DNA of 46,388 bases. It comes from Thermodesulfovibrionales bacterium. GTDB lineage: Bacteria > Nitrospirota > Thermodesulfovibrionia > Thermodesulfovibrionales > SM23-35. Of the stretch, positions 1,980 to 36,857 are shown piece by piece. A program made the position numbers and the translations under genes. Positions within the stretch are counted from its first letter, which is position 1. Each line of letters begins with the position of its first letter. Location of the stretch: assembly GCA_031082155.1 (NCBI GenBank), contig JAVHLL010000023.1:1-46388 (forward strand). The letters run 5' to 3'. The notes under the pieces were generated by a model. The model had not been told where the DNA came from and did not search any database. It was given only the letters and a program-made list of their open reading frames with translations.

Positions 1980-4900
1980 TCAGAAGAAAATATTGATCAG
2001 ATACCCGGCCACAAACGATCCGAGCCAGAAAAACATCGTGAGCCATATAGTCGTCCTGCGTCCAATGACCCCGAAGAGCAGCGCTATGGAGCTTACACAG
2101 ATGCCGTTTGCGGCAAGGGTGAAGGTAATTGCATGCCCCATTGGAAGCCCGAGGTCAAGCAGGGGTTTCAGCAGGAGGACGTCCTCGCCGGAGCAGAGAA
2201 AGACCGGGACTCCTATTGTAGCTGCAAGGAAAAGCCCAAAGAAATCCGAACCAAGGTATTTGCTGACCATAATGGTCGGCAAATATGTGCCTATTACCGC
2301 TCCGAGAAGAATCCCTATGGCGATAAAGCGGCCGAGATACAGCATAAGACGCCAGCCCGTTATCAATCCCGAGGCAGATGCTTCTGAAGCAGACGGAGAG
2401 ACACAGGAACTGCATAGTCTGCAAATGGGAGACCCTGTGTCAACTTCTTCTTTGCCGACAAAACGTTCAATGAGAATACCTGACGCAAATGCCAGAAGGA
2501 ACGCTGATGCAATCCGCAGGACAGTATATTCCAGGCCGATTACGCCGTAGGAAAAGAAAATGACGAAGGGGTTAAGGATAGGCGTTACGACCAAAAAGGC
2601 GATGACCGCCCTCCTCGGGACATCAAGAGCAAGCATGGCGCGCGTCATGGGCACGACACCACAGGAGCATAAGGGGAGCAGCGCCCCTACAGCCGTTGTC
2701 CCGAGCATGCTTTTGGGAAGAATGTTCCTCTTTGAAAAATATTTCATGACTACCCCGGAGATGAGACATCCGCCGACGAAGAAGGGGAATATTTTCAGGG
2801 TGAACAACGATACATTCGTGATAAATGCAGTGCTGGTCTCCTCCAGTGACGGCGATATCAGCCGCAGCACCGAACAGTAAATAAAATACAGAAGGGCGAT
2901 GATACCGAATAAAACGGCAAGCCACCACTGGGTACGTTCTTTACTCAGAAATTGAAAATACTGAGAGCCTGACTGCATCAGCCTGTCGAAGGGCTTTATA
3001 TATTTCCTCATCATCGGGACCACAAGAACGATGAGGACAAGGACAAAAATAATCTTATCGATCCAGGGGTATGTCATCAGGGTTGCGATGACAGGGCACT
3101 TTTCTCCGGTAATCTGTTCCAGCGCCTCTGTTGCGCTTTTTCTCACCCTTTCATTGTCATCGTCAAGGAGTTTCACCAGAGCGGCAACAGCCGTATTGTC
3201 CCCTATATTCCCCAGGGCTGAAGCCACCATCGCCCTGATGCGCCAGTCTTCTGATTTCAGTTGTTTGACAAGCGCTGACACTGCCTTGGTATATTTCAGT
3301 TTTCCCAGTGCAGTGATAGAAGCCTTCCGGACCTCAGGGTTCTGATCCTTCTCCAGAAACTCGAGGATCATTCCCGCAGCCCGTTGATCACCGATATCGG
3401 AAAGGGTATGAATTGACTGTATCCTGAGGAATGTATCTCCTGAACGGGCAGCCTCCATCAGAGGGTCGACCGACTGAGCACCGCTATATTTTAAAACAGC
3501 CCTTGCATTCATCCTGATATGCTCATCTTCATTGGTTTGTAACGCAATGAGCTGTTTTATTTCTTCCGCAGTCGCATCGACTCCTGGTCCGGTCCGCTGA
3601 GAGATCAGGTTTATCGCTATCAGGGCTTCCCTCTTTACCCCGGCGTCTCCTTCCGACAGGACCTTGAGCAGAGGGGCGACCGCTTCCTTACCGCCTGCGA
3701 GGCCGAGGGCCTGCGCGGCCGAACGGCGGACCTGCATGTCTCCTTGAGAAAGAAGCTGAAGGAGCTGTTTTGTTGCAGCCGGGTCCTTCAGCTTGCCGAG
3801 GGCAAGCGCTGCAGAAATCTGTACATCGCTGTTCCTGTCCGAGAGCAGGGGGAGCAATTTCGGAGCAGCCTTAGGGTCCCCGATTTCGCCGAGAGCCTCA
3901 GCGGTCATTGCCCTGATAAAGGGATCTCTGTCTTTGAGCGTCAAAAACAATGCGGGGAGCGCATCTTCAGTGCCTATTGCGATAAGGGTATTCAGAACAT
4001 CCGCTTTCAGTTCCGTATTGAGCAGTTTCAATACCGGTCTCACCGCACGGTAATATCGTATCTCTCCAAGAGAAAAAATCGCGGCCCTTCTGACGTTCAT
4101 ATCAGGGTCATCGAGCGCGCCGATAAGGAGGTCCCCTCCTTTTTGACCGAATGCGGCAAGGCCCTGAGCGGCATGCATGCGTATCTCCGTATCGCTATCT
4201 TCAAGGGCCTCTTTCATGAGCTTCATCGACTTTTCATCGCCCATATGACTCAACGCGGTAACCGCGCGCCCGCGTTCTTTCGGATCTTTCGACTGAAAAA
4301 GCGTATTGAGATATGCGATGGTTTTACCGCCCAGACTTACAAGCGCAAAAGCAGCTTCCTGCTTTACCATTTCGCTTTTATCCGAGACCGCTTCAACCAG
4401 GTGAGGAACAGCACGCTTGTCCGGTATTTTTCCGAGGGCCTGAGCTGCTGCAGCCCTGACTTCAGAGTCCGGGTCTTTCAATGCGGTGATCAGGGTCTCG
4501 ACTGAGTTGGTTGAGCCGATGACCCCGAGGACCTGCGCCCCTGATCTCCTGATATTTTTATTCTTGTCTTTTAAAAGCGGTTTGATCTGCGGCAGTATCT
4601 CCCCGCCGTAATTTGCTATCGCATTGACGAGATATGAATCGGTTTTCTCCGCTTCTTTCAGATACTCTATAAGAGGCCTGACAGCTTCTTTGGCCTTCAG
4701 TTCCGAGAGCGCCACCGCCGCATGTCTTCTCAACTCTTCTGCAGGGTCTTGCATGGCATTCAGAAACACGGGAACCAGTTCCCTGTTTTTCAGATAGGCA
4801 AGCGTATGGATAGCAGCGATGCGGACTCTGACGCTAGGATCTTTTGCAAGTTTTATTATTTCCTGCCGCGCCTGCGGGTCGTCAACATTGTGCAGACAGG

Positions 4901-5606
4901 CAAGAAGCTGGATTTTCATCTCAGGGGTATCCGCCTTCTTCAGGGCAGTCACAAAACCGGGGATGACGTCAGGATGACGTTTTATCCACTTCTGTGCAAT
5001 GTCTTCGGCCTTTTTACTGGTTTTCCTGTCTTTGTGGACGAGCAGTTCGATAAGCTGTGGCAGTGCCTTTTTCTCATTCAATGAAGACAGATCTTTCAAT
5101 GCGTCTGTCTGGTCATGCCCTCCCCTCTTAATTGCATCGAGAAGGACGTCGACCCCGCTCCTGTCGCCCATCTTCGCAAGAAGTGAGGCAGAAGGAAACC
5201 GGATATTCCATTCTCCGTTTTTCAGCCCTGTTTTTAACGCGTCTGTCGCTTTGGGGCCGAACCTGAGGAGAGCGTTCTGCGCCAATGAAGCGACATATTT
5301 GTCTTTGTCTGCCAGGGAATACAGGAAAGCGTCGATTGAACGCGGGTCCATCATTTCGAGGAGTATCAGTGTCGCCTGCTGCTTTGCAAAAACATTCCCT
5401 GTCCGCATGGTAACCGTCAGACCTTTCACCGCTGCAGGGTCTTTCAGTGCAAGGAGTTTTTTCGCAGCTTCATCCTGTTGCCCGCGGTTGTCGCTGTTTA
5501 ACCGGCTGATGAGTTCTTCGATACCGGACTGCTGCTCTGCAAACACGCTGAACGGCATACAGAAAAACAGGATGAGCGCTGCAGAGTAAAATGCCATTCT
5601 ACGCAA
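1980..5606 (-). CDS. HEAT-repeat array fused to ArsP/SO_0444-type permease
   Basis: This 1208-residue protein joins two modules. Residues 1-24 form a Sec signal peptide. About residues 25-835 are some two dozen ~31-residue HEAT/PBS-lyase-like repeats (recurring patterns such as VRRAAIFSLGEI, IRAMTAEALGEIGDPKA). Transmembrane helices follow from about 849. The C-terminal ~300 residues match the DUF318/ArsP_1 permease family: a CSCG motif at about 980-983 (LLPLCSCGVVP), a Cys-rich link CRLCSSC at about 1062-1068 between the two permease halves, and CSGED at about 1138. Members of this family export arsenicals or metals such as Cu/Zn. The substrate here is inferred, not shown. Topology suggests the repeat array is periplasmic. 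TTG at 5606 is chosen because AGGAG sits 6 bases before it; the in-frame ATG at 5597 is too far. The gene lies 71 bases behind the FG-GAP gene, probably in one transcript. Confidence 0.85.
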   Translation of the reverse strand: MRRMAFYSAALILFFCMPFSVFAEQQSGIEELISRLNSDNRGQQDEAAKKLLALKDPAAVKGLTVTMRTGNVFAKQQATLILLEMMDPRSIDAFLYSLADKDKYVASLAQNALLRFGPKATDALKTGLKNGEWNIRFPSASLLAKMGDRSGVDVLLDAIKRGGHDQTDALKDLSSLNEKKALPQLIELLVHKDRKTSKKAEDIAQKWIKRHPDVIPGFVTALKKADTPEMKIQLLACLHNVDDPQARQEIIKLAKDPSVRVRIAAIHTLAYLKNRELVPVFLNAMQDPAEELRRHAAVALSELKAKEAVRPLIEYLKEAEKTDSYLVNAIANYGGEILPQIKPLLKDKNKNIRRSGAQVLGVIGSTNSVETLITALKDPDSEVRAAAAQALGKIPDKRAVPHLVEAVSDKSEMVKQEAAFALVSLGGKTIAYLNTLFQSKDPKERGRAVTALSHMGDEKSMKLMKEALEDSDTEIRMHAAQGLAAFGQKGGDLLIGALDDPDMNVRRAAIFSLGEIRYYRAVRPVLKLLNTELKADVLNTLIAIGTEDALPALFLTLKDRDPFIRAMTAEALGEIGDPKAAPKLLPLLSDRNSDVQISAALALGKLKDPAATKQLLQLLSQGDMQVRRSAAQALGLAGGKEAVAPLLKVLSEGDAGVKREALIAINLISQRTGPGVDATAEEIKQLIALQTNEDEHIRMNARAVLKYSGAQSVDPLMEAARSGDTFLRIQSIHTLSDIGDQRAAGMILEFLEKDQNPEVRKASITALGKLKYTKAVSALVKQLKSEDWRIRAMVASALGNIGDNTAVAALVKLLDDDNERVRKSATEALEQITGEKCPVIATLMTYPWIDKIIFVLVLIVLVVPMMRKYIKPFDRLMQSGSQYFQFLSKERTQWWLAVLFGIIALLYFIYCSVLRLISPSLEETSTAFITNVSLFTLKIFPFFVGGCLISGVVMKYFSKRNILPKSMLGTTAVGALLPLCSCGVVPMTRAMLALDVPRRAVIAFLVVTPILNPFVIFFSYGVIGLEYTVLRIASAFLLAFASGILIERFVGKEEVDTGSPICRLCSSCVSPSASEASASGLITGWRLMLYLGRFIAIGILLGAVIGTYLPTIMVSKYLGSDFFGLFLAATIGVPVFLCSGEDVLLLKPLLDLGLPMGHAITFTLAANGICVSSIALLFGVIGRRTTIWLTMFFWLGSFVAGYLINIFF

Positions 5607-5677: not shown

Positions 5678-7126
5678 TTACCGGACAGAAGAAAAAATAT
5701 TAAGGGTTTCTTCATGCACATTCGAAATCACTATCGACGGGAGCGCTCCGGGGGACAACCGGCAGGTATTGAGATAGAGCCCCTGTCCCTCTGCTTGCAA
5801 CGTGTCACTCAGGAAGAAACCCTCTTTGCTGTTTTGCCATATCTGGAGTGTGCTTTTATTGTCAACCGGCAGCGGGGCTGCAAAGGTGACCACAATGTCC
5901 GGGAGTCCGTCTCCATTCATATCGTCTGAAACGATCCGGACAGGGACCTTTTGGTTCGTTTCTATCGAAGTCTTCTGCAGAAGCCTGCCGTCTTTGTTTT
6001 CGAAGAGGTAGATTTTGCCGTCACGCTCACTTGATACCGCAACATCCGGCAATTTGCGGTCAGGATACCGCAGGAGCGCTATCGAGGAGAGCGCATATCC
6101 AAATTCATGGGACATGACCGGTTCAATCGGTACAGAGGTAAAATCAAAATTCCCTTTCCCGTCGTTCAGACCGATATAAATGGCGTCAAACACATAGGAA
6201 GGCGCCACGATGTCCGGGAAACCATCACCGTTGATGTCTTCTATTACGAAATCCTTGAACCCATTGTCCATCGCCTTTATGCGCCTCGCATATCGCCATT
6301 TTTGGGAACTGCTGCCGGACGTGTCCTGTATCTGTTCCGTTTTTTCAGGAGACTGCGTCCCCTCTGAGGGAGGAGCTACACTTTTGAGGTCTTCCCTCTG
6401 TATTTTAGCGCTGCTCTTTTCTACCCGGGATTTTTCCTCGGCGCTCATTTCTCTCTTCGTGGATGATATGGATGGAGTATCATCCCGCGTGGAAGTGAGG
6501 GATGACTTACGTACCGGTTCTTCAAATTCAGGCATCAGATTCATACGGTTTGGGGTGAAATTCATGTTCCCCTTGTTCATGACAATACTGAGAAAAGGTT
6601 TCGGGAGTGAAGAAATTACAAGATCAGGCAGAGAATCATTATTGAGGTCCTCACTCTCTATATGCCAGGAATAAAGCAGCGCCTGGATATCAAGATCATG
6701 CCGGGTAAAGTTCCCTCTGCCGTCATTCAGAAAGACCGGGCCAACCTTCAATTCAGTCAGAGGGACAAGGTCCGGGTCACCATCACCGTCAACATCTGCG
6801 GCGGTGAGAGAAGTGTTGTGGGGAAATGTTTCGTAGTTTACCGGCAGAGAAAAACTGCCGCTGTGGTCATTGAGCATTACCACAAGCGCCTGCTTTTTGA
6901 GTGCGACAGCTATATCCCGGTATCCGTCTCCATTCAGGTCCGCGCAGACAGGGTCAGTCGGCCTGGGGCCGATATGGTAACTCTTCATGAGATAGCGAGC
7001 ACTCCCTTCCGGAACCGGCGATATGCCGGTTGTCAGCGCGGGAGAGGGCCCTGCAGAACGTACTGAACACGCCGCTGCAAAAAATATTACGAACAGAAGA
7101 AATCTATGCATAAAATATTTTGTCAT
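5678..7126 (-). CDS. FG-GAP/VCBS repeat putative lipoprotein
   Basis: This is an exported protein of about 482 residues. The N-terminus is hydrophobic and ends in AAAC-S, a plausible lipobox, so it may be anchored to a membrane. The body holds at least five FG-GAP/VCBS blades, each with a calcium-loop signature of the DxNxDGxxD type (DLNGDGYRDIAV, DVDGDGDPDLVP, DLNNDSLPDLVI, DINGDGFPDIVA, DMNGDGLPDIVV), as in integrin-like beta-propellers. A Ser/Lys/Glu-rich linker of about 60 residues interrupts the propeller. A GTG at 7159 would extend the frame but overlaps the promoter; I chose the ATG at 7126, with an ATG at 7111 as alternative, and neither has a clear ribosome binding site. It is the first gene of a likely operon with the HEAT-permease gene. 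The function is unknown beyond a likely surface or periplasmic binding role. Confidence 0.75.
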   Translation of the reverse strand: MTKYFMHRFLLFVIFFAAACSVRSAGPSPALTTGISPVPEGSARYLMKSYHIGPRPTDPVCADLNGDGYRDIAVALKKQALVVMLNDHSGSFSLPVNYETFPHNTSLTAADVDGDGDPDLVPLTELKVGPVFLNDGRGNFTRHDLDIQALLYSWHIESEDLNNDSLPDLVISSLPKPFLSIVMNKGNMNFTPNRMNLMPEFEEPVRKSSLTSTRDDTPSISSTKREMSAEEKSRVEKSSAKIQREDLKSVAPPSEGTQSPEKTEQIQDTSGSSSQKWRYARRIKAMDNGFKDFVIEDINGDGFPDIVAPSYVFDAIYIGLNDGKGNFDFTSVPIEPVMSHEFGYALSSIALLRYPDRKLPDVAVSSERDGKIYLFENKDGRLLQKTSIETNQKVPVRIVSDDMNGDGLPDIVVTFAAPLPVDNKSTLQIWQNSKEGFFLSDTLQAEGQGLYLNTCRLSPGALPSIVISNVHEETLNIFSSVR

Positions 7127-7146
7127 GAAATTTGTGTTGAATTTAT

Positions 7147-7175
7147 AGTATAATTTCACTAAGTCTATTTGTCAA
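7147..7175 (-). promoter_or_regulatory. Sigma-70-type promoter for FG-GAP/HEAT-permease operon
   Basis: Minus-strand TTGACA (7170-7175), 17-base spacer, TATACT (7147-7152). Transcription would start near 7140, which rules out the upstream GTG at 7159 and leaves a leader of only about 15-30 bases before the ATG at 7126 or 7111. Confidence 0.75.
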
Positions 7176-11135: not shown

Positions 11136-11469
11136 CGTGTGCCTCCTTTTTTTTATTGTAAAACATCATCACCCGAATTGCCATAAGTTTATCAAAAAGA
11201 TACGGAACAACAGATATGTTCAGGATACATACTTTCAATCCGTATAAATTTACGGGATAGGGCTTAGTTTCTTAATCAAAATCACGGGTTACCTTGATGA
11301 GACCGAAGACGAAGCGGCGGGCCCGGCTTTCAATCAAAAGATTCCTTGATGCTCTGCCTCGGGGTTAATATTTCTATCGGAATGGTAATTTAACCACAAA
11401 CACTAAGAAACAAGCATACAGGTTCTTCATGTCCCGGTGATACCCTCATCTGCAATAAGAAAAGGTGTT
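11136..11469. other. Intergenic region upstream of the protease
   Basis: There is no credible gene in these 334 bases. They contain a short element (11281-11317) also found, diverged and inverted, near larB. CCTTGATG occurs twice as a direct repeat (11292-11299 and 11344-11351). No convincing sigma-70 promoter for the protease could be read, so its control signals are unassigned. A structured leader RNA on the minus strand is possible but unproven. Confidence 0.4.
11281..11317 (+). repeat. Dispersed ~37-base element, copy 1
   Basis: The sequence begins ATCACGGGTTACC and ends GACGAAGCGG. The complement of 45504-45540 matches it at about 30 of 37 positions. The shared core is GATGAG followed eight bases later by AGACGAAGCGG. 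It may be a fragment of a longer dispersed element or of a structured RNA. Confidence 0.5.
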
Positions 11470-19197: not shown

Positions 19198-20400
19198 TTA
19201 CTGCAGGAGAGATCGATAGACAGCAAAAGTGATTTTCGACATATCATCTACTGTTTTTAACCTCCCCCTTGCCTTTTTGACCGCTTCATTGAGAAAATCC
19301 ATCACGACCGGATTGCGCTTGATATCCTCTATGATCTCGATGATCCTCGGTAAAGGGTTCTCAACAGGCACAAGAAATCCAGCGGACTCACTCGCAACTC
19401 TTTCCCGGAGGGCGCCCCCATCGGTTGCAATCACCGGGACGCTGCTCGCTATCGATTCTGACAGGGTGTATGAGAATGTTTCAGGCCAGTTTGAGAGCAA
19501 GAGGATCACATCAGGATTTACCTCGTGTATTTTTTTCACGACATTGTCTCTTGTATATCCACCTGCCACAAAAAGATTTTTACTGGAGGGAACCATCAGA
19601 GGATCAAAAATATTTCCAATAATACTGAATTTGACCGATTCTGAATTTTTATAGTATTTCACAAGTTCAGCAAAGGTCTTGTTCCCCTTATAATGCAAAT
19701 AATTGCCGAGAAAAGCCAGGCTCAATATTTCGTTTTTTTTCTCTCTTCTGGCGGTCCGGAGGATTTCCTTGTCAACACCAAATTCTACTACTTTACACCG
19801 TTCCCCCGTGAGTCCCTTATAGAGACTGAGGCAAACCTCTCTCACATAGAAAGAAGGCACAATAACCATGTCGAGCAGGCTAAAAAGATAATCAATGTAC
19901 AGCCGCCTTTCCTTCACATACCCCTGCGGGACATGGTAGTTATTCATGGTGAGACACTTGTAACACACCGTTTCATTGTCTTCGAACCAGCAGAAATCCG
20001 GTGCCAGCAATATACAATTAATGCACCAGAAATAATATTCGTGAAGGGTCGCAAGGACTTTCTTTTTTCTCTGTTTCGCTATTTCTATGAGGGACAAGGG
20101 AAGCGTCCGTATGCTCTGAAAATGCACTATGTCCGCATCGGTATCATCGAGGATTTTATGGAAAACGACCTCAGTTTCATAATCTCTGAGTCTGTGGTCA
20201 TCCAGTCTTCTCCCGTTATATTTCAGCTCCTCAATCCGGCAGTCCTTATACGACCTGAGACATATGGAATCCCTTTCAGGGAAGACGACAGAGACAGGCA
20301 TATTGTTCCTGACAAAATAACTGATTAAGTCAAGCTGATGATACTCTATGCCTCCGGGATACCCGTCAGGTTTCTGATCTATTACATACAGGACATTCAA
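19198..20400 (-). CDS. GT4-family glycosyltransferase (pair 3)
   Basis: This retaining glycosyltransferase of about 400 residues has a GT-B fold: an N-terminal Rossmann domain (NVLYVIDQKPDGYPGGIEYH) and a C-terminal nucleotide-sugar domain with LAFLGNYLHYKGNKTF, then ESIASSVPVIATDGGALRE, where the Glu of the family's ESxxxG-like motif is present. A Cys cluster near residues 140-165 (CINCILL, then CWFEDNETVCYKCL) is unusual and is paralleled in the other two GT4 proteins here. The frame is open back to 20490, but TTG at 20400 is the likely start: GGAGG lies 6 bases before it and the family N-terminus begins there. It overlaps the end of the upstream GT2-GT2 gene by 35 bases, so the two are probably translationally coupled. 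Confidence 0.85.
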   Translation of the reverse strand: MNVLYVIDQKPDGYPGGIEYHQLDLISYFVRNNMPVSVVFPERDSICLRSYKDCRIEELKYNGRRLDDHRLRDYETEVVFHKILDDTDADIVHFQSIRTLPLSLIEIAKQRKKKVLATLHEYYFWCINCILLAPDFCWFEDNETVCYKCLTMNNYHVPQGYVKERRLYIDYLFSLLDMVIVPSFYVREVCLSLYKGLTGERCKVVEFGVDKEILRTARREKKNEILSLAFLGNYLHYKGNKTFAELVKYYKNSESVKFSIIGNIFDPLMVPSSKNLFVAGGYTRDNVVKKIHEVNPDVILLLSNWPETFSYTLSESIASSVPVIATDGGALRERVASESAGFLVPVENPLPRIIEIIEDIKRNPVVMDFLNEAVKKARGRLKTVDDMSKITFAVYRSLLQ

Positions 20401-22576
20401 CTGTATCCTCCATTCGCCGTAGTCTGAAACTGATGTACGCGTGGATTGGGGCAAGATTCCCGCTGAGTGCTTTTGCAACGAGGTCGGCATATTCCGGATG
20501 GAGGGCCTTTAACGTCTCGAGATTCTTCTCAATCATAAGGTTCTTTTCCCTTAATACTTCCGGGTCCTTTACCGATTCGAAAGATACACCGCCGATATGA
20601 TAGATATAGGTTGAGTCGTCAAGAACATGAATATACCCCTTTTTCAGTGCCCTCATGCAGAAATCGGTTTCTTCAGCGTAACCCCTGCCAAAAGATTTTT
20701 CATCAAAATATCCGAGATCATTCAGTACAGACCGTTTTATATACATACAGAAACCTACTCCCGCAGGGATTTCCGGATAGTATCGCAGGGAAATCTTCTC
20801 AAGGAATTCAGCGAAGGCGCCGATGTCCATTCCATTCGGTATTGAGTTATAGTGAAAAGGCTCGGGGATGCCATTAATCGTTACATAATTGGAGAGAGGA
20901 GTCGCGGTAGCAACTCGCAGTCTCGAATAGGCGGCTCGCTGCAGTTTGCTTATCCAGTTCCTGGTAACAATGGTATCGGAGTTTAAAAGGATTACATCTT
21001 CATGGGTGGATTCCATCCCTCTGTTTACGGTTTTTGTAAAACCCAGATTACTCTCATTGTATACGATGTGTATTTTTTTCTTATCCTTCTCCCCGTCTAT
21101 TTTTTTCAGATACTTATGGATGCGGACATCTGTGCTTTTGTCATCAATAATCATCACCGTATGATACGAAAGATCTGTATTCCTGAGGATACTCTCCATA
21201 CAATCTCTGATACATTCATATCCGTTAAAAACGGGGACAATGATATGGACGGGAGCCTGGATAAAATCATATCGAACAGACATGGGGGAACCTTCAGCAA
21301 AATGTATTGACCTGAGCCTCTTGAGTTTCAGCTTGAATTTTAAAGCATCAAAATTCATGTGGCTCTTTCTCCTGACCCTGCACATGAACCCCTTCATGCC
21401 TTCATTTTTTATCACCTTGACACTCTTCAGAAACAAATCGTAAAAAAATCTTCTCCTTGTCCCTAAAGGAGCAATTTTTTCCTTTATGGTCCGGTACCGT
21501 TCTATTAAATTCCAGCCTATACTGCTTGACAACTCCATGACATAGTTCCGCAGGCCCATTAATTCATCGAAGAGAGCATTTTTATCAAATTCGATCTGCT
21601 GCATCTCTGCCCGAAGTTTCCTTTGCTCAGATTCAAGCCGTTTCTTTTCGACCTCAAGCCGTCCCTTTATGTAGTTCAGTCTCAACTTTTCTGATCTGAG
21701 ATGCCTCAGTTCATCGGTCAAGTCCAGCTTTTCCTTGAAGTACTCGGATTCCTTTTTGATAAGTTCATCGTAAAATTTCTGCCGTTCGGCTGCATTATGT
21801 ACACAGTAGGCATAAATCGTCTCAGTAGTAATTTTTTCCTTGTTTTCACTCAAAACCCTCTGATAGGCCTCTCTGCTGAAATCTTCGAGGAGAGCCCTCC
21901 TGTTGATCTGGGATTCATCACTCCATTGATTATATCTGGCTGTTATTCTGCGTATATGTTCAAACCAATATGTTTGGGATAAGGCAATGAGTAGCATCCA
22001 GTCTTCGAAAATCTCAAACCGCTCGTCAAAACGAGCCTGCGCAAGCACGTCACGGGAAAACAAAAGACACATGAAAGGGATATAATTCTGCATCAGCATA
22101 ATCTGAGGCGAATAATTGTGCGAACAATTTACCTGCTTGGATTTTTCGAAGATTTCCCCGTCTTTATCAATCTGGATAAATATGGTATCTGCGTCCGTAT
22201 AGGCAATTTTGAGTTGACTCCCTCTCAGTGTATCGGTAAGAACCAATACGTGATCAGGGTAGTATTCGTCATCGTCGTCCAGGAAACCAATGTAGTCGCC
22301 GTGAGCATTCTCTATCCCTACATTGCCTGCATGCGCCCTGCCGCTATTCTCTTCCAGCCTCACGTATGTGAGGGATATCGTGTCCAGGATGCTCTCTGTT
22401 TTTTCCATGACGAGGTCACATCCGCCGTCATTCACAAGCACCACTTCGATGGGCCGGTATATCTGCGCTGCGATGCTTTTCAGCGCCCTTTCCAGAAGAA
22501 CAGGCCTGTCTTTAGTTCTTACGATTATTGATACTAAAGGGTTCTCTGTGCTGATGTTCATCGCTTCTTTGAGCAT
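20366..22576 (-). CDS. Two-domain GT2 glycosyltransferase with central coiled coil (pair 3)
   Basis: This 736-residue protein contains two GT-A (GT2) domains. Domain 1 covers about 13-225: VSIIVRTKDRPVLLERAL, then IGFLDDDDEYYPDH, the Asp-rich metal/nucleotide-sugar site. Residues about 268-345 are a charged heptad-like coiled coil (ELRHLRSEKLRLNYIKGRL onward). Domain 2 covers about 445-700: VHIIVPVFNGYECIRDCMES, LLNSDTIV as DxD site, then GYAEETDFCMRALKKGY. Two active sites in one chain suggest it adds two sugars or polymerises an alternating unit. The coil may scaffold partners. The ATG at 22576 is used; the ATG at 22561 (MNISTENP) is an equally possible start. A Cys-x2-Cys (CPVC) stands at the very end. 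Confidence 0.87.
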   Translation of the reverse strand: MLKEAMNISTENPLVSIIVRTKDRPVLLERALKSIAAQIYRPIEVVLVNDGGCDLVMEKTESILDTISLTYVRLEENSGRAHAGNVGIENAHGDYIGFLDDDDEYYPDHVLVLTDTLRGSQLKIAYTDADTIFIQIDKDGEIFEKSKQVNCSHNYSPQIMLMQNYIPFMCLLFSRDVLAQARFDERFEIFEDWMLLIALSQTYWFEHIRRITARYNQWSDESQINRRALLEDFSREAYQRVLSENKEKITTETIYAYCVHNAAERQKFYDELIKKESEYFKEKLDLTDELRHLRSEKLRLNYIKGRLEVEKKRLESEQRKLRAEMQQIEFDKNALFDELMGLRNYVMELSSSIGWNLIERYRTIKEKIAPLGTRRRFFYDLFLKSVKVIKNEGMKGFMCRVRRKSHMNFDALKFKLKLKRLRSIHFAEGSPMSVRYDFIQAPVHIIVPVFNGYECIRDCMESILRNTDLSYHTVMIIDDKSTDVRIHKYLKKIDGEKDKKKIHIVYNESNLGFTKTVNRGMESTHEDVILLNSDTIVTRNWISKLQRAAYSRLRVATATPLSNYVTINGIPEPFHYNSIPNGMDIGAFAEFLEKISLRYYPEIPAGVGFCMYIKRSVLNDLGYFDEKSFGRGYAEETDFCMRALKKGYIHVLDDSTYIYHIGGVSFESVKDPEVLREKNLMIEKNLETLKALHPEYADLVAKALSGNLAPIHAYISFRLRRMEDTVECPVCNRSET

Positions 22577-22655
22577 GAGAGATATATCATGCGCACCATT
22601 ATATGATAATTATAGAGGTTTCTGTCCAATTTCTTCCTTCCCTGCTCGCAGCTGT

Positions 22656-23555
22656 TCACCGGAGCGCCCTGTAGCCTCTCCAGTATGCGAGATATTTCGA
22701 CAGCCTGATAACAGGGATCAGGGGCATTTTCTTTCCGTACCCTCTCATTCGAAAATACCGCACATGCATCTTGAGATCATCTATCACGGTCCTCACCTTT
22801 GCACGCATAGAGGGACAGAATTCATTGATCACGTCAATACCGTACTTGTCTTTCAATATCCTGAAAGTCTTTCCATCCCGATACGCGTAGAGGGTGGCCC
22901 TTTTGAGTGAAAAAGGATGGGTGTGGTACACTGCCGCCCTGGTATTATATTGAAAAAAATATTTATCTTTCAGTAAAAGATACCACAAATAATCCTCCCA
23001 GCTCGGCAATTCCTCATCAAATGGCTGTATCAGCCATATGTGCTTCAAAAACGCACAGTTTGCGTTCGAAAAGGGTACTCTGCCGTCTTTTTTCTCCTTT
23101 TCAGGGAAATGCTTCCAGAGTGAAACCTCTTCGAATGGATTGATTCCTTCTATCGGAACTTGTCGTCCATAAATTGCATGCGCGGTACCCGATAAAATAG
23201 GGCCCACCAGCTCTTTCAGCCATGTATTTCCCACGGGGACGCAATGGGCAGAGAGAGAACAGATGATTTCACCGCGGGCACTGGCAATTCCGCAATTAAG
23301 CGCATATCCATAGGTAAACCGTTCTGCGGGGATAGTAATAATTTTTATCGGATAGCCCCCTGCGATTGCAAGAGTTCCGTCAGTCGAACTCGAATCCACG
23401 AGGATAATCTCGAAAGGGGAAACCTGTTGCTGATTGAAAAGCACTTGAAGGGTCTTGCCGATACTTGCTTCCTCATTTTTCGTACGGATGACTATGGAAA
23501 TCTGTTTCTCAATAGGTTTCATAAAATCCGCGCAGGACCGGCACCTGCTATCCAT
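22656..23555 (-). CDS. GT2-family glycosyltransferase
   Basis: This single-domain GT-A glycosyltransferase has about 299 residues. It begins with a short Cys-containing lead and then QISIVIRTKNEEASIGKTL, followed by IILVDSSSTDGTLAIA. At the position of the usual DxD motif it has SLSAHCVPVGN. This SAH/SGHxVP variant occurs in a subset of GT2 enzymes of polysaccharide loci, but it lacks the second Asp, so metal binding may differ. PSWEDYLWYLLL supplies the catalytic-base ED. The frame is open to 23600; I favour ATG at 23555 because it overlaps the stop of the preceding GT4 gene (ATGGATAG) and follows a GGAAGG tract. ATG at 23522 (MKPIEK) is possible. Confidence 0.8.
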   Translation of the reverse strand: MDSRCRSCADFMKPIEKQISIVIRTKNEEASIGKTLQVLFNQQQVSPFEIILVDSSSTDGTLAIAGGYPIKIITIPAERFTYGYALNCGIASARGEIICSLSAHCVPVGNTWLKELVGPILSGTAHAIYGRQVPIEGINPFEEVSLWKHFPEKEKKDGRVPFSNANCAFLKHIWLIQPFDEELPSWEDYLWYLLLKDKYFFQYNTRAAVYHTHPFSLKRATLYAYRDGKTFRILKDKYGIDVINEFCPSMRAKVRTVIDDLKMHVRYFRMRGYGKKMPLIPVIRLSKYLAYWRGYRALR

Positions 23556-24789
23556 TCCCCCTTCCATAAAGACATTCAAGCATAAATGCCTCCTCCTCAA
23601 TTCGTGGCGGGGGGACTATATTCTCTCTCAGCATGCCGGGAAGTGAAGGATCAGCGGCGATTCTCCCGATTATTTCACCAAGAGTCTCAGGATGGTTCAC
23701 AGAAAAAACAAAGCCATTCACTCCGTCGCTGACATATTCGTAGGCGCTGCCTACGATATCCGATACCAGAACAGGGACAGAACATAAAAGGCTCTCAGTC
23801 ACTACAAGGCCGTAGCTTTCGAGTGTTGTGGAGGGGACTACGGTCATATCAATGCTGCTGAATATATCCTGGAGCTGGTCATGTGAATATTTTCCGAGGA
23901 ATTTTATCCGCATATCGTCTTTTATGGAATTCCGGAGTTCATGAAAAAAATCCCTCTCCCACACCCATTCCTTATAAATATCTCCGTGTATGTGCAATGC
24001 AATCTTGTCGCTCTTCACCCGTTTAAATGATTGCACAAGCAGATCGACTCCCTTGAATCGGGTGATTAATCCCGTGTATCCGAAGACAAGAGGACCATTG
24101 TGTTTTCGGTGTATCCTCCCTGAAGGAGCGGCGATACGGGCGTAATCGACCCCGTGTTTCACTAAGGCAATCTCCTTATGCCAGCCGTTCTGTTCGAAAA
24201 TTTTTCTAATAAACCGTGAGGGAGCTATAATATGATCAGCTTTTTGGAATAATGCATATGCATGAGCATACCGCTGAATCACCGAGGATTCTGCCCCGCA
24301 TTCCTCCATGCATTTCCTGCCTTCCATGGGTGAATTACATGGCGAATAATCCGGCTTGAAAAATCTGCCCCGCGGACACAAAAGCCAGAAATCGGTTAGG
24401 GTCAGAAAAAGAGGAATGTTCAGGTGATGCGCACTGTTGATTACGGAGCAGAGTTTCATGGGGTGAGCGACATGGACGATATCGATATGTTCCTGCTGAA
24501 GGAGATCGCAGAGATGTGTTTCCATAAGAGAATCGCCGGTTCTGTATCCGATATCCGGCGGTATTTCATTATGCCGGACACAGAGGACAGGCACCTGCTC
24601 ATATGAATATTTTTTCAAAAACATATCCCCCCATCGGGAATATCCGTTTTTCTTGTCATCCATTCCATACGTGAGCACCTTCACCCTGTGACCTGTCCTT
24701 TGCATCTGTTTGCTGATATTCAGGACATACCGCTCTACCCCGCCATAAAAAAGAGGGAAAAAATCATTCACGACATAGAGGATATTCAT
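23548..24789 (-). CDS. GT4-family glycosyltransferase (pair 2)
   Basis: This 413-residue GT-B glycosyltransferase has an N-terminal domain starting MNILYVVNDFFPLFYGGVERY, with the glycine-rich acceptor loop. The C-terminal domain has VFGYTGLITRFKGVDLLV and then ESLLCSVPVLVSDIVGSAYE, the donor-binding helix with its conserved Glu. It has a Cys-rich stretch near 118-145 (CPRGRFFKPDYSPC, then CMEECG). It is clearly paralogous to the 29808-31055 protein, sharing ERYVLN-SKQ and VKVLTY. Its ATG overlaps the stop of the preceding GT2-GT2 gene as ATGA, so translation is coupled. Sugar donor and acceptor are not predictable. Confidence 0.88.
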   Translation of the reverse strand: MNILYVVNDFFPLFYGGVERYVLNISKQMQRTGHRVKVLTYGMDDKKNGYSRWGDMFLKKYSYEQVPVLCVRHNEIPPDIGYRTGDSLMETHLCDLLQQEHIDIVHVAHPMKLCSVINSAHHLNIPLFLTLTDFWLLCPRGRFFKPDYSPCNSPMEGRKCMEECGAESSVIQRYAHAYALFQKADHIIAPSRFIRKIFEQNGWHKEIALVKHGVDYARIAAPSGRIHRKHNGPLVFGYTGLITRFKGVDLLVQSFKRVKSDKIALHIHGDIYKEWVWERDFFHELRNSIKDDMRIKFLGKYSHDQLQDIFSSIDMTVVPSTTLESYGLVVTESLLCSVPVLVSDIVGSAYEYVSDGVNGFVFSVNHPETLGEIIGRIAADPSLPGMLRENIVPPPRIEEEAFMLECLYGRGNG

Positions 24790-27212
24790 ACTCCTGTACC
24801 CAGTATGTCTTCGAAGGGACTGAGATCCTCTGTATTCCCGGGATGATGATGCGAGAAGACCATATAGTTGCCGATAGTCGCGCCTGCTGTCCAGGCAAAT
24901 AATTTATAGAAGGCATCGATGAATTCCTGGATATTCTCATAGGTTATCCGGACAGCCCTTTGATTCACGTATTCAGAAAAAGTATCAAGGAATGAAAAAT
25001 AGTGATGCTTAACGACATCGTCCCGGGCAGGGAATGCCGGACAGCACACATGCCATTCCTTAAGCAGCCGGTTGAAAAGGGTGTCAAGACCGGGGTCCCC
25101 GGATACATAGGGAATGCTCTCCCCCCTGTTGAGAAATGTCTTGAAGAGGGAGAAAAGCCTTTCCGATGGAGCATCCAGGAGGTCATCCATCGGGAGAGTC
25201 CTGAAAAAATAACACGCGCTTCTGTATTCCGCGCCGATTTTGGTCAATAACTGGTCAACCGAACCAATGCCTGCCCGGTTCCAGTCAACAGGCGCCTGCC
25301 CAAGCATATTCAAAAGGGCCTTTGTATCGACATACCCCCTCCGGAGAAAATATACGGGAGCTCTTGTGTGTGAATGGATGACGCCCGCAGAAGCCAGAAA
25401 CAAGAGCTTATACCCTCCCCTTACCAGTCTCATGCCAAGGTCAAGATCTTCCGCGTATGGCAGAGGTAAAAATTTGAACTCATCAAATATTTTTTTCCGG
25501 AAACAGGAGAAGACATTATCCAGTTGCATCAGCCTTCTTTTCTCGGATGAGAGAAGACGCTCGGTCTCCTCCCCGCGCATGTCACTTATTTTGTCTCTTG
25601 TATAGTCCAGTAATTTATTGTTATAAAACCAAAGCTGCCAGTTCGCAAAGAGATCCGCATCGCTTCTCGGAATCTGTTTGATGGATGCTCCGGCAATCTT
25701 CTCGTCTTTCAGCATCTCCGTGAGAATCCTGTGTATGCAGATATCATCCACAGGAACCGCATCTTGAGACATAAAAATGATGAAGTCTCCTGAGGCCTGT
25801 TCCGCACCAAGATTCCGTGTCGCGCCATGATTGAACGCAGCCGCGTCCAGAGAGATGATCTTTGCTCCATATGCCGCTGCAAACCCTGCCGTTCCATCTG
25901 ACGAACAGGAATCCATGACAATGATTTCAATATCCCGAATCCCTTTTTGTATCTTTATCTTCTCCAATACATATCTGAAATCCGTTCCCGCATTCCGGGT
26001 TGGAATTATTACAGAGACTTTGGTATCGATCGCATTCACAGTCCCAGCTTTGATTTCCGGAATGATATATTGCTCTCTTCTGATATTTTTGCGTGCCAAT
26101 GTTCTTCTTATGGTATTCTTCACTTTGGCAATGAGCACTCCGGCGCCGCTGTCAATCCCGACTGCTATGCTTTTCATAAGCAGATTATATATTCGCTCTC
26201 TTTTCGTCTCCGGCGGGACACACAGAGATTTGAGTGTTTTTCTGTAGAGGTTCAGGACTTTCCAGCCGGTGCTTTTCTCAATCTCTTCGATATATCTGTT
26301 TCGGTCCTCCAACCGGGATTCCAGGTCACGAAGCACTCCTGCACCTACTTGCCTCTCGTATTCACGCTTGCGCAAATGCGCCGGGGAATCATCTGCAGGC
26401 GGTTCTTTCCCTGGGAATGGACTTCTGTGCTCTTCCAGGGCATGACGCTGCAGTTTTTTTCTCAGGGAATAGCGATAAACTGCTTCAGAGGTTCTTCTCG
26501 CCGCGTGTTTTTGCAGCATCCTGATGCAATATTCTTTTTCCTCTAATGCAGTTTCTGTCGGCTCATCACGCATGCTCCGGCATGTAGTTTGTGCGGTACG
26601 GACAGGGCTGTGAAGAAAAGAACTTTCGGCAGCTACTCTGATAAGAAGATCCCAGTCGCTGGCATCACCGAGGGATTCATCAAACCCTCCGGCAGTCCTG
26701 AGGATTTCACCATAATACAGGAGCGAGACAGCGGGGATATAATCCTCAAAGAACAGCATTTCTGATGAGAAGTCCTGCGAAGGCAATTGATACCAGGATG
26801 TCTCGACAAAAATATCATTGTGCTGATCATACGAGAGGCTTACCGCATCCACATCCGAGTAAGCGACCTTGCAATCAGTCCCTTCAAAGACAGCCTGCAA
26901 GGTTGCGGTATGTTCAGGATACAGCACATCGCCGTCACTGAGGAATCCGATGTATTCGCCGCGCGCATGCGCGATGCCTGCATTCCCGGAATGTGCCCTG
27001 CCGGTATTTCTTTCGATCCGGACATACCTGAGTGACACCTCTCCGAGCATGCCCTTCATTGCATCGAGGGGAAGGTCGTGGGCGCCATTGTTCACCAGCA
27101 CAACCTCAATCGGTCTGTAGGTCTGCCCGGCTATGCTCTGCAGGGCGCGTCTGAGCAGCTTCTGTCTGCCCTCTGTTCTCACGACTAAGGAAATCAAGGG
27201 ATATTTAGACAT
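24786..27212 (-). CDS. Two-domain GT2 glycosyltransferase with central coiled coil (pair 2)
   Basis: This 808-residue protein has GT2 domain 1 at about 5-215 (ISLVVRTEGRQKLLRRAL; IGFLSDGDVLYPEH, where DGD keeps the DxD pattern). A charged helical linker spans about 255-300. GT2 domain 2 covers about 395-620 (VSVIIPTRNAGTDFRYVLEK; FIIFMSQDAVPVDD; YAEDLDLGMRLVRGG). A C-terminal helical tail of about 190 residues follows. Domain 2 and the tail resemble the 31056-33431 protein (HSHTRAPVYFLRRGYVDT versus HSHNRPALYFLKRSYTDT), so the two are paralogs. The SQDAVP form is common in rhamnosyltransferase-like GT2 enzymes. The start lacks a visible ribosome binding site. It overlaps the next GT4 gene by ATGA and follows the 27332-28315 gene by 119 bases. 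Confidence 0.87.
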   Translation of the reverse strand: MSKYPLISLVVRTEGRQKLLRRALQSIAGQTYRPIEVVLVNNGAHDLPLDAMKGMLGEVSLRYVRIERNTGRAHSGNAGIAHARGEYIGFLSDGDVLYPEHTATLQAVFEGTDCKVAYSDVDAVSLSYDQHNDIFVETSWYQLPSQDFSSEMLFFEDYIPAVSLLYYGEILRTAGGFDESLGDASDWDLLIRVAAESSFLHSPVRTAQTTCRSMRDEPTETALEEKEYCIRMLQKHAARRTSEAVYRYSLRKKLQRHALEEHRSPFPGKEPPADDSPAHLRKREYERQVGAGVLRDLESRLEDRNRYIEEIEKSTGWKVLNLYRKTLKSLCVPPETKRERIYNLLMKSIAVGIDSGAGVLIAKVKNTIRRTLARKNIRREQYIIPEIKAGTVNAIDTKVSVIIPTRNAGTDFRYVLEKIKIQKGIRDIEIIVMDSCSSDGTAGFAAAYGAKIISLDAAAFNHGATRNLGAEQASGDFIIFMSQDAVPVDDICIHRILTEMLKDEKIAGASIKQIPRSDADLFANWQLWFYNNKLLDYTRDKISDMRGEETERLLSSEKRRLMQLDNVFSCFRKKIFDEFKFLPLPYAEDLDLGMRLVRGGYKLLFLASAGVIHSHTRAPVYFLRRGYVDTKALLNMLGQAPVDWNRAGIGSVDQLLTKIGAEYRSACYFFRTLPMDDLLDAPSERLFSLFKTFLNRGESIPYVSGDPGLDTLFNRLLKEWHVCCPAFPARDDVVKHHYFSFLDTFSEYVNQRAVRITYENIQEFIDAFYKLFAWTAGATIGNYMVFSHHHPGNTEDLSPFEDILGTGV

Positions 27213-27331
27213 AACACATCGTATATATTACAAAAATTAACAAGGCCGAGCACTGAGAACGTTGCGTATAAGTTTCCGTCAAGTCCAAGCTGTTTCAGGG
27301 TGAAACTGACAAACGTATCAGGGAATGTCGG

Positions 27332-28315
27332 TCAGCAGAATAACTTTCTGGTCTTCGCAAGAAAAAACTCTTTGTGCCAGCAAGATGTCATAATACGAGA
27401 GAGTTGTCTGTTCCGCACTCTTTTCTGTTTCATAAGGACCCTCCGTTTCCGCATCATCCTTGGACACAGCTTTATTGCATCCCATTTTGCCCGCACATAG
27501 AGAGAAAATTTCCTGTATTTCACCGCGAAATACAGGAACTCTACCAGGTTTCCAAGAAGATAGAAAGGGAAACATCTGAAAAAAACAGCGACGGGCACAT
27601 TTTTCATCCGCACGAATTCCGAATTCCTCAGAGAATAATAAATCGCCTTGGTACTCATCTCTTTTATTGTAGACCGAACCTTGTGAAAAACGATAGCAGA
27701 AGGGACATAGAGAACCTTCCAATCCGCAAGTTGTGCCCTGAAATTCAAATCTGTGTCCTCATAAATCAAAAAAAAGTCTTCATCCAGAAACCCGATATCT
27801 TCTATCATGGCCCGTCTGTACAGTGCTGCCCCTGCACAGGCGCCGAACACAAATTCCTGTTCGTTGTACAGGTTGACAGATAGTCCCTCCCCGCGTTTGA
27901 ATCCCCGTAGTGCGGTGGAAATGCCATCTCCTGCACTGTCGATAACACCCCTGTCTGCTACGATCATCTTTGTGGCGCCGATGCCGATTCCCTGATCTGC
28001 TTCCATTGCCCGGCAGAGGTTCTGCAGGCAGTCTTTTTCAACCTTCACATCATTATTGAGGAGCATGATATAATCACCTGCCGCATGCCTGAGGCCCTCG
28101 TTATTCGCTCCGGCGAAGCCGATGTTTTGAGCCAGGGAAATGATCTTTACCCGGGGGAAAGCTTCCCGCACATACTCGAGAGAGCCGTCACGTGATGCAT
28201 TGTCAACAAGAATGACTTCGATATTGCTGAAGGATTGTTCAAACAATGATTCAAGGCAATCTCTGAGCAAATGTTTGCCATTGTAATTGACAACAATTAC
28301 CGATATCGTCTTCAA
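27332..28315 (-). CDS. GT2-family glycosyltransferase, rhamnosyltransferase-like
   Basis: This 327-residue GT-A enzyme contains ISVIVVNYNGKHLLRDCLES, VILVDNASRDGSLEY, NIGFAGANNEGLRHA and the DxD-equivalent IMLLNNDVKV. It ends its catalytic part with LIYEDTDLNFRAQLADWKV, the pattern of WbbL-type rhamnosyl- and related transferases. The last ~70 residues are basic with hydrophobic patches (VAVFFRCFPFYLLGNLVEF) and may associate with the inner membrane. The start is a TTG without a good nearby ribosome binding site, so the first residues are uncertain. It is the first gene of the long minus-strand glycan operon, divergent from the methyltransferase gene. Confidence 0.85.
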   Translation of the reverse strand: MKTISVIVVNYNGKHLLRDCLESLFEQSFSNIEVILVDNASRDGSLEYVREAFPRVKIISLAQNIGFAGANNEGLRHAAGDYIMLLNNDVKVEKDCLQNLCRAMEADQGIGIGATKMIVADRGVIDSAGDGISTALRGFKRGEGLSVNLYNEQEFVFGACAGAALYRRAMIEDIGFLDEDFFLIYEDTDLNFRAQLADWKVLYVPSAIVFHKVRSTIKEMSTKAIYYSLRNSEFVRMKNVPVAVFFRCFPFYLLGNLVEFLYFAVKYRKFSLYVRAKWDAIKLCPRMMRKRRVLMKQKRVRNRQLSRIMTSCWHKEFFLAKTRKLFC

Positions 28316-28581
28316 AATGAATAAGTCCGCTCCTTACAGAACAGAGTGCATCCGGATAAATTCTATCGCGTAGACCCTTCCGCTCTCTATACATAATATA
28401 CACCTCTCTCATAATTCACAATATATCATCTGAGCCAATTGCGCTGCAAAAAATTGCGGGTGCGCTCTTTCCTGCAAGTTTGTGCATAAAATGGGGCTAT
28501 TCAAAAACCGCATTCCCTGGATGCCGCTCCTCCAAAACTTATTTTTGTCAAATCCGGAATAAGATATAATGAAAGAGAAAC
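28316..28581. other. Divergent control region inside the glycan island
   Basis: No gene fits in this gap. It separates the leftward glycosyltransferase operon from the rightward methyltransferase. On the plus strand a perfect TATAAT (28565-28570) lies just before the methyltransferase; its -35 match is weak. On the minus strand AT-rich TATATTATG sequences (near 28393-28402) could serve as a -10 box. No operator repeat is evident. Confidence 0.4.
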
Positions 28582-28592
28582 AGGAGAACAAT

Positions 28593-29801
28593 TTGGATAC
28601 ATGGATAGCAAAAGCAGCCTCGTTATACGGAAAGCTCCTGAGGAGAGAAACCTCCCTGCTCTCTGCCCGTACCGATCCGGTTATTGAAGCGTTTGTGCGG
28701 GACCAGATTGAAAAGCCGGCCACATTCAATTCAACTATCAGCAAAAACGACGACATGTATTTGTTCGCATTGCAACATTTTAAAGGTAACAGGGACCGGG
28801 CGTGCATCGAATTGCTGACCACAGGGAAACAGGGCATGGATGTAATCCGTCAAATCATACGCTGGAACTTCAAGGGTTTTGAGAATGTCTCAGGCTTTCT
28901 TGATTTCGCGAGTGGGCATGGACGCCTTACAAGGTTTTTGACACAGGAACTCTCACCCACGCGCATATCGGTTTGTGATATTTCCGAAGACGCGGTAAAG
29001 TTTCAGAAGAAGCAGTTCGGTGTAAACGGTATAGTGTCTGTTCAGGATCCCCAGAAATTTAAAGCAGACCGCCAATATGATTGCATCTTCGTTGCCTCTC
29101 TTTTCAGTCATCTTCCGGAAAAATATTTTACCGGCTGGTTGAAGCAGTTATATGAATTGCTGACCAAGAACGGGGTGCTGGTATTCAGTGTACATGACGC
29201 TGAAGTACTCCCTGCTCACCTGACAATGAAAGGCAAGGATATTCTGTTCCTCCTCGAAAGTGAAAGCAGATCCCTCAACAAGGAGGAATATGGAACTACG
29301 TATGTAACCGAATCATTCATAAGCAGAATAATCGCGCAGATTACCGGGGGATCCCGGTATTATCGGAAGAAAAGGGGGCTCTGGTGGTTCCAGGACCTTT
29401 ATATACTCTCAAAGAATCCGGACAAAGATTTCGGTGATTTTGATATCTTTCAGGGACCCGCAGGATATGTAGACAGGGGTGTCATTACAGACAAGAATGA
29501 AATATGCTTTGACGGATGGGCTGCTGATTTCGGTACGGACACACATATAAAAGAGATACAAATAAGCGTGAAGGGGAAGATAATCCACCGGTGTATCCCG
29601 ACTTATGACCGTCCTGATATTTCCCGCGCATTCCACGATACACAAGGGCTGAAATCCGGTTTTTCGTGCTGTTTCCCGGGAGACGCGGCAGATCCTTCCG
29701 ACATAGTTATCATCAAAGCAATAAATAGCCTTACTATGGAGCATATTCTCAGAATCGGCACTTTAGCATCAATGACAGAGCCGGCATTTACACATCCTTG
29801 A
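28593..29801 (+). CDS. SAM-dependent methyltransferase with C-terminal beta domain
   Basis: This protein has about 402 residues. Residues about 95-260 are a class I methyltransferase: FLDFASGHGRLTRFL (motif I), VCDISEDAVKF (motif II), YDCIFVASLFSHLPEKYF (motif IV), LLTKNGVLVFSVH. From about 300 a separate beta-rich module follows, with FDGWAADFG, YDRPDISRAFHDT and LKSGFSCCFP. This GWA/RPD/SGF pattern recurs beside glycosyltransferases and methyltransferases and may bind glycans. TTG at 28593 is chosen over ATG at 28569 because AGGAG stands 6 bases before it and the ATG overlaps a TATAAT. It is the only plus-strand gene in the island, convergent with the 29808 gene (6 bases apart). It likely methylates a sugar of the same glycan. 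Confidence 0.8.
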   Translation: MDTWIAKAASLYGKLLRRETSLLSARTDPVIEAFVRDQIEKPATFNSTISKNDDMYLFALQHFKGNRDRACIELLTTGKQGMDVIRQIIRWNFKGFENVSGFLDFASGHGRLTRFLTQELSPTRISVCDISEDAVKFQKKQFGVNGIVSVQDPQKFKADRQYDCIFVASLFSHLPEKYFTGWLKQLYELLTKNGVLVFSVHDAEVLPAHLTMKGKDILFLLESESRSLNKEEYGTTYVTESFISRIIAQITGGSRYYRKKRGLWWFQDLYILSKNPDKDFGDFDIFQGPAGYVDRGVITDKNEICFDGWAADFGTDTHIKEIQISVKGKIIHRCIPTYDRPDISRAFHDTQGLKSGFSCCFPGDAADPSDIVIIKAINSLTMEHILRIGTLASMTEPAFTHP

Positions 29802-29807
29802 CAATAT

Positions 29808-36644: not shown

Positions 36645-36735
36645 GGAGAGATGTCCGAGCGGCCGAAGGAGCACGACTGGAAATCGTGTGTACGCTAAAC
36701 CCGTACCGTGGGTTCAAATCCCACTCTCTCCGCCA
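36645..36735 (+). tRNA. tRNA-Ser (anticodon GGA)
   Basis: Acceptor stem GGAGAGA (36645-36651) pairs with TCTCTCC (36725-36731), followed by a discriminator G and an encoded CCA. The anticodon arm CACGA-CTGGAAA-TCGTG gives anticodon GGA, which reads UCC and UCU. A long variable arm (class II) is present, as expected for serine, and the T arm reads GTGGGTTCAAATCCCAC. It lies 13 bases before the SRP RNA and may share its transcript. Confidence 0.97.
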
Positions 36736-36748
36736 TTTTGTCTTTTTT

Positions 36749-36857
<109 letters not shown>

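Follow-up and report, generated by a model that had tools for sequence, protein, structure and literature searches.

The window analysed here is a stretch of 46,388 nucleotides, positions 1 to 46,388 of contig JAVHLL010000023.1 in assembly GCA_031082155.1 of a Thermodesulfovibrionales bacterium (Nitrospirota), and the gene under study occupies positions 1980-5606 on its reverse (-) strand. As judged from the reading frame and Pfam profiles, this gene encodes a protein of 1208 amino acids in which a predicted signal peptide is followed by a HEAT superhelix and then by a 10-helix permease of the ArsP_1 type. The 1208 codons contain no internal stops, the frame extending over 1212 codons from stop to stop; the start codon is TTG, 6 nucleotides 3' of an AGGAG sequence, with an alternative start at the Met of codon 4. 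Profiles of both kinds are matched in the same chain (HEAT_2, 1e-115; HEAT, 1e-61; HEAT_PBS, 1e-49; ArsP_1, 7.6e-35), a co-occurrence that is far above chance. An earlier note on this DNA, made by a model from the letters alone, had placed the signal peptide, the HEAT repeats and the ArsP_1 permease in a single frame, and it was correct as to coordinates, strand and motifs. The gene is a genuine, well-formed architecture assembled from two known kinds of modules, and it is, so far, unique.

The signal peptide comprises residues 1-23 (LRRMAFYSAALILFFCMPFSVFA; 5538-5606, - strand), with a hydropathy peak over residues 4-22. Inspection by eye and the hydropathy profile both predict a Sec-type peptide, which would be cleaved between this stretch and the following EQQ, in agreement with the -3/-1 rule (V-F-A). 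The HEAT superhelix (3108-5534, - strand), as delineated by Pfam HEAT_2, an AF2 model and Foldseek, consists of 51 helices, that is, about 25 two-helix repeats. In the model, the first helix begins at residue 25 and the last one stops at residue 833, in line with the approximately 810 residues of HEAT repeats counted earlier, and the pLDDT of the array is mostly 80-95. The Pfam scores all exceed the respective gathering cut-offs (377.6 bits against 27.7 for PF13646, 199.2 against 23.5 for PF02985, and 161 against 20.9 for PF03130), the HEAT_2 profile (PF13646) matching the array with an E-value of 2e-115. A Foldseek search with the full chain matched alphaRep, karyopherins and CAND1 to the HEAT part and yielded only HEAT-type proteins among the matches listed; therefore, the permease was modelled separately. 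The closest relatives of the HEAT half are generic HEAT proteins only, the best of them with 38% identity over 293 residues, and the HEAT proteins of related genomes are free proteins of about 440-680 amino acids. HEAT/PBS-lyase proteins are mostly cytosolic, and the export of such an array had been considered an oddity; export itself is predicted here as well, but it is not unusual in this order, where two further HEAT proteins (L148 and L151) likewise start with signal-peptide-like stretches.

The ArsP_1 core of the permease (residues 935-1205; 1992-2804, - strand) scores 120.9 bits against PF03773, exceeding the gathering cut-off of 32.3 bits, and the match spans profile positions 12-293 of 294. 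Ahead of this core, at residues 847-917 (2856-3068, - strand), hydropathy, alignment and the model reveal two additional membrane helices, which are missing from most of the ArsP_1 relatives that we have seen. Three cysteine motifs stand out. C980-S-C982 (2661-2669, - strand), the family-invariant Cys-x-Cys identified by the alignment columns P, C, C, P, maps in the model to the tip of the predicted hairpin HP1; C1062-x2-C1065-x2-C1068 (2403-2423, - strand), as judged from sequence, alignment and model, falls in the linker that joins the two halves and is predicted to be cytoplasmic; and C1138-SGED (2181-2195, - strand) is placed by alignment and model at the tip of the predicted hairpin HP2. 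The 'CSCG' of the earlier note corresponds to C980-S-C982-G, and its 'CRLCSSC' to residues 1062-1068. All 12 invariant columns of the ArsP_1 alignment (A3), including P-x-C-x-C-x3-P and the downstream Gly/Pro, are kept in the protein. In the phylogenetic tree, it groups with the SO_0444-type proteins in one superclade (100/100), where its position next to the CEGEE clade is weakly supported. Members of this superclade carry C-terminal HMA metal-binding domains, and the gene neighbourhoods of the CEGEE clade contain ArsR regulators at three loci and an RND pump at one. Thus, the PF03773 match, the tree position, and the HMA domains and gene neighbours of the relatives uphold the previous assignment to the metal/metalloid type of permeases. 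No relatives of the permease were found in the PDB by sequence. The same genome encodes a second, ordinary ArsP_1 permease without HEAT repeats (G000:C42:2783-3823, L001; 251.5 bits). Separately, large high-GC genomes of another phylum (L144 and L145) encode ArsP_1 permeases that have a long membrane domain at the N-terminus and end in His-rich HVHGPxC repeats.

A stand-alone counterpart of the permease half exists in a genome of a different phylum, that of L058 (G717): a free permease of 392 amino acids (L156:2615-3790, + strand) with 41% identity to residues 867-1206 (E 1e-80) and 39-41% over the whole permease half. The two proteins have in common both extra N-terminal helices as well as the CSC, CxxCxxC and CSGED motifs, the linker motif being CYTCKGC in the free permease and CRLCSSC in the fusion. 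Other permeases that were found have 22-33% identity and mostly lack the extra N-terminal helices. Since the G717 relative shares the whole permease half, the fused unit is the 10-helix CSGED permease. Only about 12 residues precede the first helix of the free permease, the charge pattern of which resembles that of the fusion, and a comparison of the two sequences indicates that the HEAT array has taken the place of the short periplasmic N-terminus, with the replacement located at about residues 834-846. By eye, the 4.1 kb contig of the free permease encodes, beside it, a TPR lipoprotein and a REP-type transposase, and no HEAT repeats were found on this contig.

Was this fusion made more than once? 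In the genome sets searched, which overlap one another, no second fusion was detected: none in 149 relatives, 395 Nitrospirota genomes and 176 genomes of the order; none in 195 genomes of the phylum of G425, 345 of the phylum of G432, 198 relatives of G717 and 74 genomes of the phylum of G423; none in 20 genomes of matched loci, or in plasmids or viral contigs; and none among the best 80 of 551 confirmed GTDB loci. Of the two findings that the earlier note would together have taken as a refutation, the lack of other proteins with both modules holds for these genomes, but the sequence speaks against an assembly join. Nor was a HEAT gene seen next to a related permease in the loci examined, and a literature search on HEAT repeats with a permease turned up nothing relevant; neither a paper nor a protein with this domain order was found. 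The long frames inspected in the phylum of G425 proved to be high-GC open frames or to have other N-terminal membrane domains. Given this absence elsewhere, we take the fusion to be the younger state and the stand-alone permease the older one.

For the mature chain, the AF2 model has a mean pLDDT of 80.6; for the permease alone, the pLDDT is 79.7 and the pTM 0.74. The predicted permease includes two hairpins and a broken helix, and its predicted fold resembles the IT elevator type, with no link at the sequence level. Foldseek with the permease model gave no match below E 0.001, but upon re-ranking of its list by VIA, the top 42 rows were all elevator-type transporters (Z 12.7 to 6.0), among them Pho90 (12.7), ArsB (11.8; 274 residues, root-mean-square deviation 5.5), CNT (11.6) and MleN (11.5), together with the DASS (INDY/NaDC), AbgT and TRAP folds; as helical models may reach Z of about 12 without kinship, such a match is support, not proof. 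ArsB has 10 transmembrane helices, both termini in the periplasm, a hairpin and a broken helix in each half, and a cytoplasmic linker between the halves (PMC13381914). The elements of our model come in the same order, and its second half has fewer scaffold helices. If the N-terminus is placed outside, the predicted cytoplasmic loops contain 18 Lys and Arg residues and the periplasmic ones 4. Three lines, namely the signal peptide, the loop charges and the ArsB-like fold with its periplasmic N-terminus, agree in predicting a periplasmic HEAT array, which is where the earlier note had put it.

The gene located 71 bp upstream of the fusion gene encodes an FG-GAP-repeat lipoprotein (5678-7159, - strand; assigned by Pfam and synteny). 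A promoter-like TTGACA-17-TATACT precedes it (7147-7175, - strand), and another one, TTGACA-17-TATATT, separates the fusion gene from the PD40 gene (1837-1865, - strand), both being consensus matches only. Because of the latter site, the PD40 gene is probably a separate transcription unit. No promoter- or terminator-like site was found in the 71 bp gap between the FG-GAP gene and the fusion gene; given this short gap, the common strand, and a promoter-like site only before the FG-GAP gene, co-transcription of the two genes appears plausible from the sequence. Accordingly, of the claim that the FG-GAP gene is directly upstream in the same transcript, the adjacency stands and the shared transcript is plausible only. 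The proposal that the lipoprotein is a dedicated partner of the permease fared worse: a genome of the same family (G003) keeps a syntenic FG-GAP counterpart with 65% identity that adjoins no HEAT-permease, and neither the fusion nor such a permease was found elsewhere in that genome, so that the lipoprotein is, at most, a facultative partner. The FG-GAP protein was also considered as SaoC and rejected (24.8 bits against 80), and no sao genes were recognized in the window beside the fusion gene.

The 5' side of the locus is syntenic with G003, where the genes for GspD, LmbE, two further proteins, the FG-GAP protein, a SurA-like protein and a PKD protein also occur together; the syntenic locus contains neither the fusion gene nor the PD40 gene. 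A comparison of the window with G003:C15:30000-48000 (L130) shows an inversion of the FG-GAP/SurA-like/PKD block with respect to the GspD-LmbE side, and the fusion gene adjoins the breakpoint of this inversion. Elsewhere in the window, parts of the non-coding stretch 11250-11372, flanked by the PKD gene and the gene at 11470, match many dispersed sites at 78-90% identity in several genomes of the same family (up to 15 in G004), a pattern suggestive of an interspersed repeat in this family; a hairpin-like stretch at 122-174 (gcctgcggcagaaaccgcaggg), with many matches in G009 and G017, is a second dispersed short repeat. A tRNA gene and a small SRP RNA gene lie directly before dnaX (36645-36853, + strand), an ordinary arrangement. 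The long run of glycosyltransferase- and methyltransferase-like genes bounded by the GspD gene and gatA (19198-33431) is, by eye, an ordinary cluster of the surface-polysaccharide type.

What could such a protein do? In its likeliest role, the permease would export a thiophilic metal or metalloid, considering its place in the SO_0444 superclade, the HMA domains and the ArsR and RND neighbours of its relatives, and the cysteines at the hairpin tips. In the predicted model, the invariant Cys-x-Cys at the tip of HP1 and Cys1138 at the tip of HP2 lie where IT transporters bind their substrates, and SO_0444 of Shewanella is required for copper and zinc tolerance (PMC3219624). We propose that the fusion is real and represents a thiophilic metal(loid) exporter of the elevator type with a periplasmic HEAT docking arm, a reading to which we give about an even chance. 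The permease half (approximately residues 844-1208) would belong to a rare ArsP_1 subfamily built as an IT-type elevator from scaffold helices, HP1, a broken helix, the linker and HP2. The linker cysteines could take the metal(loid), with Cu(I), Zn/Cd and trivalent As as the candidates, from cytoplasmic thiols; it would then be held between the hairpin tips, which bear the Cys-Ser-Cys of HP1 and the Cys-Ser-Gly-Glu-Asp of HP2, and be carried to the periplasm by the elevator movement. The HEAT superhelix, presumably attached to the first scaffold helix at its periplasmic end, might dock a periplasmic or outer-membrane acceptor and keep it at the exit. Docking is the likeliest role of the arm inasmuch as HEAT superhelices serve as binding surfaces, a single cysteine (C237) occurs in the array, and the attachment is to the scaffold and not to the moving part. 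With about 25 repeats, and judging by known HEAT proteins, the array could span much of the periplasm; that it replaces, within the permease chain, the separate adaptor that would link an inner-membrane pump to an outer-membrane partner is, in our view, improbable.

Several observations weigh against this proposal. The permease misses the NCBIfam equivalog cut-offs (89.6 bits against 325 for SaoE and 77 against 300 for SO_0444), and its exact position in the tree is weakly supported (85/37), on a long branch (2.58); hence, kinship is a weak guide to the substrate. In the window, no gene for a metal regulator or chaperone adjoins the fusion gene, and no metal site is evident in the sequence of the HEAT array. 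The full-chain model, with a pTM of 0.42 and a pLDDT below 50 for residues 847-896, does not fix the placement of the HEAT array relative to the permease, and the fold match carries the reservation given above.

A deeper doubt would be that two genes were united by chimeric assembly or binning. The assembly is a draft of 56 contigs, the fusion has been seen once only, the gene is about 2 kb away from the contig end, and a genome of the same genus has no counterpart of it. Against this, the reading frame is preserved through the join, which coincides, in the alignment with the G717 relative, with the domain boundary where a complete permease begins; the GC content at third codon positions is uniform along the gene (0.555 in the HEAT part and 0.589 in the permease part, as compared to 0.53-0.60 in the neighbouring genes), the 3' flank is alike in composition, and the 5' flank is syntenic with G003. 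The earlier note had dismissed an artefact on account of the continuous frame, which by itself is insufficient; the uniform composition and the boundary-placed join make a chimeric contig improbable, and we consider this explanation very unlikely. Equally hard to credit is a cytoplasmic HEAT array, which would mean that the first hydrophobic stretch is not a signal peptide or is not recognized as one: the usual cytosolic location of HEAT proteins speaks for it, but the predicted signal peptide carries a cleavage motif, the loop charges and the ArsB topology both require a periplasmic N-terminus, and the G717 relative has a similar charge pattern with its dozen residues before the same first helix.

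If the fusion is real, it could still be a one-off product of a deletion that brought an exported HEAT gene and a permease gene into one frame, with no selected joint function, the permease working alone and the HEAT part being a passenger or an unrelated scaffold. The lack of a second fusion in the order, the 395 Nitrospirota genomes, parts of other phyla, the best 80 GTDB loci and plasmids, the occurrence of the G717 permease without HEAT, and the presence of generic exported HEAT proteins in the order all fit this possibility. However, a stop-free array of 810 residues with intact repeats, a high-confidence fold and neighbour-like codon use would be a costly passenger, and no recent DNA-level duplications were found within it; on balance, we regard the one-off origin as unlikely, though less so than the preceding alternatives. 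Alternatively, as the earlier note suggested, the array could be a sensor or gate, whereby the binding of a periplasmic ligand would pull on the scaffold helix and open or close the transporter. HEAT superhelices are flexible, and only about 13 residues separate the array from the first scaffold helix; yet, there is no evidence of a ligand, a conserved surface is not computable without homologues, and elevator transporters move the transport domain rather than the scaffold that bears the HEAT array, which makes gating improbable.

Both modules are known; their order in one protein is new within the searches made. The invariant Cys-x-Cys of ArsP_1 and the second Cys, both at predicted hairpin tips, would make a metal site that is testable by point mutants. 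If the HEAT arm is, indeed, a docking surface, a single-chain secondary transporter would have gained its own periplasmic arm; unless a second lineage or a HEAT-arm phenotype turns up, the interest of the fusion is moderate.

Among the characterized systems, the SO_0444 copper/zinc efflux family (NF033936, PF03773) has the same ArsP_1 core, the P-x-C-x-C...P of HP1 and the Cys of HP2, and belongs to the same superclade; the fusion differs in its score (77 against 300 bits), the two extra N-terminal helices, the giant exported HEAT array, and the lack of a C-terminal HMA domain. SaoE of the Sec-assisted organometallic system (NF040736) is the best NCBIfam permease match (89.6 bits), but the cut-off is 325 and the window contains no recognized sao neighbours. 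ArsB of the IT superfamily (PDB 10tp; PMC13381914) resembles the model of the permease in its fold, the two hairpins, the periplasmic N-terminus and the cytoplasmic linker, all of which are predictions on the side of the fusion. It differs in sequence (9% identity), in the C-terminal half, where our model has one scaffold helix versus three in ArsB, and in substrate binding: the ArsB substrate is hydrogen-bonded by polar residues (PMC13381914), whereas the fusion has cysteines at the predicted hairpin tips. The published placement of ArsP is in the TOG superfamily (PMC7176098); our model suggests that ArsP_1 permeases belong with the IT-type elevator transporters. The HEAT half shares its repeat sequence and superhelix with HEAT/PBS-lyase proteins and alphaRep designs, from which it differs in being exported and joined to a transporter. 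Finally, the CSGED permease of G717, which has a short N-terminus and no HEAT part, is akin to the fusion over the whole permease half, with 39-41% identity and all the motifs.

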